Assembly (NCBI RefSeq): GCF_027923555.1
Contig: NZ_AP025523.1
Location: forward strand, 1,426,001 to 1,490,000
Source: Vulcanimicrobium alpinum
Lineage (GTDB): Bacteria; Vulcanimicrobiota; Vulcanimicrobiia; Vulcanimicrobiales; Vulcanimicrobiaceae
DNA length: 64,000 nucleotides
Direction: 5' to 3'
Positions 20,945 to 23,237 of the stretch are shown one piece after another; position 1 is the first letter of the stretch; every line of letters starts with the position of its first letter. The notes below the pieces were generated by a model, which saw only the letters and a program-made list of their open reading frames with translations, was not told the DNA's origin and did not search any database. Made by a program: the position numbers and the translations under genes.

Positions 20945-21028
20945 AGCCGACGGTGGGATTCGAACCCACGCTGTGCTTGCGCAGCCGCATTACAAGTGCG
21001 GTCCCTTCAACCTCTTGGGTACGTCGGC
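20945..21028 (-). tRNA. tRNA-Thr(UGU) with class II-type long variable arm
   Basis: The minus-strand sequence folds completely: acceptor GCCGACG/CGTCGGC, 3-bp D stem CCC/GGG, anticodon stem CCGCA/TGCGG around loop CTTGTAA (anticodon TGT), T arm GTGGG-TTCGAAT-CCCAC. The variable region is 15 nt (CTGCGCAAGCACAGC) and can form its own stem, as in Leu/Ser/Tyr tRNAs. G1-C72, C2-G71 and U73 are shared with the ordinary tRNA-Thr(GGU) at 23163, supporting threonine identity. CCA is not encoded. Confidence 0.88.
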
Positions 21029-21123: not shown

Positions 21124-21211
21124 GGGTCGGTGGTCGAGTGGTTAATGGCACCGGACTGTAAATTCGGCTCGCGAAAGCGATACGCAGGTTCAAATCCTGC
21201 CCGGCCCACCA
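21124..21211 (+). tRNA. tRNA-Tyr(GUA)
   Basis: An 88-nt class II tRNA: acceptor GGGTCGG/CCGGCCC, anticodon loop CTGTAAA (anticodon GTA), long variable arm, T arm GCAGG-TTCAAAT-CCTGC, discriminator A and encoded CCA at 21209-21211. A TATGAT hexamer at 21102-21107 is a plausible -10 element. It is followed 69 bases later by tRNA-Gly, as tyrU is by glyT in the classic cluster. Confidence 0.95.
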
Positions 21212-21280: not shown

Positions 21281-21354
21281 GCGGGCGTTGCATAATGGTA
21301 ATGCCCTTGCCTTCCAAGCAAGAGTCGCGGGTTCGATTCCCGCCGCCCGCTCCA
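21281..21354 (+). tRNA. tRNA-Gly(UCC)
   Basis: Acceptor GCGGGCG/CGCCCGC, D stem GCAT/ATGC, anticodon stem CTTGC/GCAAG around CTTCCAA (anticodon TCC), T arm GCGGG-TTCGATT-CCCGC, discriminator T and encoded CCA. All arms pair perfectly. It ends 6 bases before the stop of the convergent DUF2470 gene. Confidence 0.95.
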
Positions 21355-23162: not shown

Positions 23163-23237
23163 GCTGGCGTAGCTCAGTGGTAGAGCATCACATTGGTAAT
23201 GTGAAGGTCATGGGTTCAATCCCCATCGCCAGCTCCA
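23163..23237 (+). tRNA. tRNA-Thr(GGU)
   Basis: Acceptor GCTGGCG/CGCCAGC, D arm AGCTCAGTGGTAGAGC, anticodon stem TCACA/TGTGA around TTGGTAA (anticodon GGT), T arm ATGGG-TTCAATC-CCCAT, discriminator T, CCA encoded. It is a normal class I tRNA with a 5-nt variable loop, which contrasts with the tRNA-Thr(UGU) at 20945. Confidence 0.96.

Follow-up and report, generated by a model that had tools for sequence, protein, structure and literature searches.

A threonine tRNA with a class II variable arm, encoded by the single tRNA-Thr(UGU) gene of Vulcanimicrobium alpinus

A review of unusual tRNAs names only the serine, leucine and tyrosine isotypes as ordinary class II tRNAs, and the exceptions with a long variable arm that it describes, tRNA-Sec, selC* tRNA-Cys and the allo-tRNAs, all have altered acceptor lengths (PMC7609411). 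Our search of the open-access literature brought up no description of a threonine tRNA of class II. The tRNA-Thr(UGU) of bacteria, known as thrU in thrU-tyrU-glyT-thrT, has a 4-bp D stem and a variable loop of 4-5 nt, and the usual order of its cluster is Thr-Tyr-Gly-Thr-tufB-Trp-secE-nusG. Here, we describe a tRNA-Thr(UGU) gene of different build, located in a window of 64,000 nt (the whole stretch of DNA analysed) of the V. alpinus WC8-2 genome.

ARAGORN and the Rfam model RF00005 agree on an 84-nt tRNA with anticodon UGU (TGT in the DNA), and its RF00005 score is 60.7 bits for a cut-off of 29 (Table 1). The acceptor, anticodon and T stems are fully paired (7/7, 5/5 and 5/5 bp, respectively), position 73 is U, and the D stem has 3 bp (CCC/GGG), with an A13-A22 mismatch. 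The variable region (CTGCGCAAGCACAGC / CUGCGCAAGCACAGC) comprises 15 nt and contains a 3-bp stem. The minimum-free-energy fold has the same five-helix form as this parse. The gene therefore has both marks by which we recognized class II, a variable region of at least 10 nt with a stem and a 3-bp D stem with positions 13 and 22 unpaired. All these structural features (length, perfect arms, anticodon, stem-forming variable region and short D stem) had been proposed in a previous sequence-only reading of the locus, which is confirmed on these points.

Table 1. Positions in the window of the class II tRNA-Thr(UGU) gene, its parts and the neighbouring tRNA genes
Feature	Position	Strand	Basis
tRNA-Thr(UGU), class II, 84 nt, without encoded CCA	20945..21028	-	ARAGORN, Rfam, genome-wide searches
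Acceptor 3' strand CGUCGGC and discriminator U73	20945..20952	-	parse, tRNA comparison
Variable arm CUGCGCAAGCACAGC, 15 nt: UGC/GCA 3-bp stem (20981-20983 with 20974-20976) closed by a GCAA tetraloop; 1 nt on the 5' side and 4 nt on the 3' side stay unpaired	20970..20984	-	parse, fold, homologue covariation
Anticodon UGU	20992..20994	-	ARAGORN, sequence
D-arm region (positions 8-26), D stem CCC/GGG of 3 bp, class II type	21002..21021	-	parse, fold
Acceptor 5' strand GCCGACG (G1-C72, C2-G71), identical to that of the genome's tRNA-Thr(CGU)	21022..21028	-	tRNA comparison
tRNA-Tyr(GUA), neighbour in divergent orientation; class II by nature, with a variable arm of 16 nt that leaves 3 nt unpaired on the 3' side	21124..21211	+	ARAGORN, parse
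tRNA-Gly(UCC), member of the conserved cluster	21281..21354	+	ARAGORN
tRNA-Thr(GGU), class I of the usual type, with U73 and a variable loop of 5 nt	23163..23237	+	ARAGORN, parse

With bacterial thrU, the V. alpinus gene shares the anticodon, the G1-C72 and C2-G71 pairs, the U33-UGU-A37-A38 loop, the T arm and a neighbourhood containing Tyr, Gly(UCC) and Thr(GGU) genes; it differs by its D stem, its variable arm and its inversion. The long stem-bearing arm and the 3-bp D stem are those of bacterial tRNA-Ser, tRNA-Leu and tRNA-Tyr, and the base of the arm is built as in tRNA-Tyr (1 nt 5', 3-4 nt 3'). However, the acceptor stem, U73 and the anticodon are of the threonine type, and the arm is shorter than that of tRNA-Ser. 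Like tRNA-Sec, selC* tRNA-Cys and the allo-tRNAs (PMC7609411), this tRNA carries a long arm outside the Leu/Ser/Tyr trio, but it has normal 7/5 arms, whereas those molecules have elongated acceptors (8/5, 8/4 or 9/3).

The same reading had stated that the gene is inverted with respect to its neighbours, and it indeed lies on the strand opposite to tRNA-Tyr, tRNA-Gly(UCC) and tRNA-Thr(GGU). A tRNA-Trp gene and nusG lie farther along, past tRNA-Thr(GGU), and the gene order resembles that of the usual bacterial cluster with its first gene flipped. The inversion is not linked to the class II form, since class I relatives are also inverted.

The genome of V. alpinus WC8-2 is complete (one contig, 3,508,363 bp). 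Our Rfam search detected 45 tRNA genes, with all the needed anticodons present, while the published count for this genome (AP025523) is 54 (PMC9758169). ARAGORN assigned among these 45 genes one tRNA-Thr(UGU), one tRNA-Thr(GGU) and one tRNA-Thr(CGU), and a relaxed pattern of anticodon loop and T loop, run on the whole genome, retrieved only the window gene and one chance match. Neither search revealed a second tRNA-Thr(UGU), standard or otherwise. With a single tRNA-Thr(UGU) gene, the class II tRNA should be the sole tRNA reading ACA in V. alpinus. In ten genes of the window, ACA accounts for 14 of 260 threonine codons, so this tRNA serves a rare codon.

The variable arm is a real structure that is formed more often than chance would allow. 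For covariation, we aligned 28 class II tRNA-Thr(UGU) that have the same dimensions and come from phages, Vulcanimicrobiota, Kiritimatiellota and further bacteria. In this alignment, the arm's stem of 3 bp is paired in all of the 84 cells, with 34 double changes that are compensatory at each of the three pairs. Sliding the partners by one column lowers the pairing of the whole structure from 98.6% to <50% in the same 28 sequences. Moreover, 71% of the Vulcanimicrobiota arms can form a stem of at least 3 bp, against 34% in shuffles, and a GNRA loop is present in 19 of 28 distinct arms of this phylum.

We then examined the distribution of this form with a pattern neutral to arm length, run on 149 Vulcanimicrobiota genomes, from which the candidate loci were fetched and parsed. 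Class II tRNA-Thr(UGU) is present in 35 of 99 genomes of the Vulcanimicrobiaceae, belonging to 15 of 38 genera. Seven other genomes of the family (loci L110, L119, L121, L136, L138, L139 and L141) have intermediate variable regions of 6, 7 or 11 nt, lengths that are rare in bacteria; most of the remaining ones have a normal loop of 4-5 nt, and some gave no match. The neighbouring family has the class II form in one genome, and the rest of the phylum has class I only. Placing the class II label on a tree built from the ThrRS of 59 genomes requires at least 13 changes, at least 8 of them forced by branches with ≥95% support, this tree being a stand-in for the species tree on which gene transfer could lower the number of switches. 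These counts suggest an old and conserved class II form that was nevertheless gained or lost many times within the family, and with that many switches charging must tolerate either form.

In one genome of the same genus (G119), the tRNA-Thr(UGU) at this inverted locus is of class I, its variable loop being 5 nt long. Over the 25 nt of its 3' part it has the same sequence as the class II members of the genus, and the D arm, the anticodon stem and the variable region differ, which fits a remodelling in place. As this relative still has a class I tRNA, function does not depend on the arm. Several class I relatives possess a D arm of class II type, in which positions 13 and 22 are mismatched; this would be expected if the arm can be lost too. 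As a separate observation, the relatives G119, G128 and G059 (L143, L152 and L155) contain dense tRNA arrays with >12 extra, oddly built tRNAs forming a second isoacceptor set, probably carried by mobile elements or phages.

In a scan of 84,980 species genomes, the class II pattern was found in 84 stretches, and ∼70 were kept once chance matches, sequences with gaps and introns of archaea had been taken out. Among those discarded, eight archaeal matches (L234, L235, L254, L261, L271, L285, L295 and L296) have an unpaired anticodon stem, as expected for introns, four (L240, L247, L269 and L281) are chance matches and two (L226 and L238) contain runs of N. The matches kept come mainly from Vulcanimicrobiota and Kiritimatiellota (under the title Lentisphaerae or Verrucomicrobia in several records). 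Isolated ones bear the titles Bacteroidota, Actinomycetota, Pseudomonadota and Bacillota, and some of these lie in phage-like tRNA arrays. The Kiritimatiellota and rumen bins (L230, L233, L243, L249, L270, L286, L292, L299 and others) make up another clade of bacteria in which tRNA-Thr(UGU) is class II. On viral contigs, the pattern gave at least 120 matches. A BLAST search for the nearest phage returned two INPHARED records only, with the best match annotated as tRNA-Thr in the Pseudomonas aeruginosa phage HPP-Temi (PP968062, 16284-16370). The class II tRNA-Thr(UGU) of phages such as this one resembles that of V. alpinus in its anticodon, GCCG...CGGC acceptor, GNRA-type arm and geometry of the arm base. 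The phage copies are part of tRNA arrays, depart from the window gene in their acceptor stem and D arm, and are not its nearest relatives. In the viral loci with a class II tRNA-Thr(UGU) (L310-L429), long variable regions sometimes also occur in Asn(GUU), Ile(UAU), Cys, Pro(UGG), Met and Gly tRNAs, and some of the longest may be introns or misparses.

According to the literature, threonine identity depends on the acceptor pairs and the anticodon, and position 73 contributes only weakly in most species (PMC9976931). The window tRNA has an NGU anticodon (UGU) together with G1-C72 and C2-G71, and both pairs are identical in all the parsed members of the family and in tRNA-Thr(CGU). Its acceptor stem with U73 is identical at 15 of 15 positions to that of the tRNA-Thr(CGU) encoded elsewhere in the genome. 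The agreement of G1-C72, C2-G71 and U73 with the tRNA-Thr(GGU) at 23163, already pointed out from sequence, was also verified. Within the family, GCCG...CGGC is kept in all parsed members and U73 in nearly all. The ThrRS of V. alpinus is standard, with core, anticodon-binding and SAD (editing) domains. We consider it very probable that this gene encodes a working tRNA for threonine, which was remodelled into a class II molecule and is charged by an ordinary ThrRS that ignores the arm. The earlier proposal of a remodelled threonine tRNA is thus well supported by the uniqueness of the gene, its threonine acceptor stem, its usual cluster position and the class I relative at the same locus in the genus.

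As an alternative, the same reading had offered that a body of the serine type was recruited to read threonine codons. In such a case, a tRNA-Ser would have changed its anticodon and acceptor stem and might be partly serylated. The D arm of some family members indeed resembles the one found in bacterial tRNA-Ser (TGGCTGAGTGGTTGAAGGCA), and the T arm of the window tRNA is identical (17/17) to that of the genome's tRNA-Ser(UGA), although other tRNAs commonly have this T-arm sequence too. G73 is the discriminator expected for bacterial serine tRNAs, and the window tRNA has U73; yet tRNA-Ser(UGA) shares U73 as well. In this genome, tRNA-Ser(UGA) (L030, G000:C1:2333333-2333419) ends in an encoded UCCA, and the three other tRNA-Ser have G73. 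U73 is therefore no strong barrier to SerRS and probably gives weak protection in V. alpinus. However, the acceptor stem is entirely of the threonine type, and the 25-nt 3' part shared with the class I relative fits a change in place. The arm also departs from the 18-20 nt of tRNA-Ser: its base has 1 unpaired nt 5' and, in relatives, usually 3-4 unpaired nt 3' (4 in the window gene), whereas the 3' number is mostly 1 in tRNA-Ser, 1-2 in tRNA-Leu and mostly 3 in tRNA-Tyr. This geometry is Tyr-like in outline and not Ser-like, and should disfavour SerRS. Given also that the nearest relatives are other tRNA-Thr(UGU) of Vulcanimicrobiota, the recruitment of a serine body is unsupported, and we regard it as very unlikely. 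Mis-serylation of the tRNA is plausible. Instead of the G2-C71 of tRNA-Ser, the window tRNA has C2-G71, which in the tRNA-Leu of E. coli is an antideterminant for SerRS (PMC9976931); this pair, the geometry of the arm and the editing domain of ThrRS argue for a low risk, and the editing domain could clear Ser-tRNA-Thr should SerRS act on this tRNA. It is highly improbable, to a still greater degree, that the gene is a decaying pseudogene or the relic of a mobile element, with ACA read by another tRNA. CCA is not encoded and the promoter scan gave no sigma-70-type match upstream of the gene, but the lack of CCA is shared with many other tRNA genes of V. alpinus, and the stems are perfect, the arm covaries and no other candidate exists in the genome.

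Two further explanations were weighed. A phage-borne class II tRNA-Thr(UGU) may have replaced the host gene, repeatedly. The class II form represents about 7% of comparable viral tRNA-Thr(UGU) (8/120 in the scan neutral to arm length), versus ∼70 matches among 84,980 genome species. Whole variable arms are common to rumen Kiritimatiellota and phage genes (for example, ATCCGCAAGGACAC in L249 and in the viral L313), and several Vulcanimicrobiota D arms are near phage ones (TCGCATAGCGGTCGATTGCA in L121 and in phage L400, TCGCATAGCGGTTGATTGCA in phage L318). However, by position-wise identity the 15 tRNA-Thr(UGU) nearest to the window gene are all from Vulcanimicrobiota, and in a weak tree of 61 columns its close neighbours are nearly all from this phylum and none from phages. 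Its nearest neighbours, to the extent that this weak tree can be read, hence do not support a phage origin. Moreover, the acceptor stem matches tRNA-Thr(CGU) at 15/15 positions against 9/15 for the best phage match, and the ancestral cluster position was retained. We therefore hold the phage source to be unlikely. We attach a similarly low probability to the arm being an adaptation against tRNA-cutting nucleases (of defence systems, toxins or phages) that target the anticodon arm of tRNA-Thr(UGU). Its broader version, equally doubtful, is that class II tRNA-Thr(UGU) is a recurrent adaptive state by which phages and some bacteria shield this isoacceptor from such nucleases or from another isoacceptor-specific factor, with ThrRS blind to the change. 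Only the UGU isoacceptor is affected: we obtained no convincing class II tRNA-Thr(GGU) or tRNA-Thr(CGU) in Vulcanimicrobiota, the matches being chance or other tRNAs. The tRNA-Asn(GUU) of phage arrays is also often class II (8/33 in viral loci that were selected because they contain a class II tRNA-Thr), but many other phage isotypes sometimes are too (Ile(UAU) 6/17, Cys 5/19, as well as Pro and Met), and tRNA-Lys(UUU), the main target of AriB, rarely is (1/21). An AriB-like DUF4435 protein, DUF4435 being presumably the family of the PARIS nuclease AriB, was found in 0 of the 99 family genomes. As judged by DUF4435, AriB is thus rejected as the selective agent in this family, and the nuclease idea is left without direct support for V. 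alpinus. Alternatively, the restriction to UGU may reflect a relaxed constraint on a tRNA that is seldom used and whose synthetase would ignore the arm.

A remodelling in place of a threonine tRNA, the preferred reading, would have proceeded as follows. The core of a single-copy ACA-reading tRNA would have been rebuilt from class I to class II, giving a 3-bp D stem and a GNRA-capped variable arm with a tRNA-Tyr-like base. The gene is presumably expressed, and the ordinary ThrRS would charge its product via the unchanged acceptor stem and anticodon while tolerating the arm. SerRS, LeuRS and TyrRS would reject it through differences in acceptor stem, discriminator, anticodon and arm geometry, serylation would stay low, and the ThrRS editing domain would serve as a backstop against Ser-tRNA-Thr. 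Relaxed constraint on a rare-codon tRNA may have been the permissive condition.

The annotation of tRNAs relies on the rule that long arms in bacteria are confined to Leu, Ser, Tyr and Sec, as do models of tRNA selection by SerRS, LeuRS and TyrRS. In V. alpinus, this rule would be broken by an essential threonine tRNA in a cultured organism. The class I, intermediate and class II forms found at one locus in close relatives constitute a natural series, in which the role of the variable arm in charging, misacylation and ribosome use, as well as the crossing of the class boundary, may be tested. Finally, because the class II form is so frequent in phages, a connection with defence against tRNA nucleases is conceivable and could be tested.
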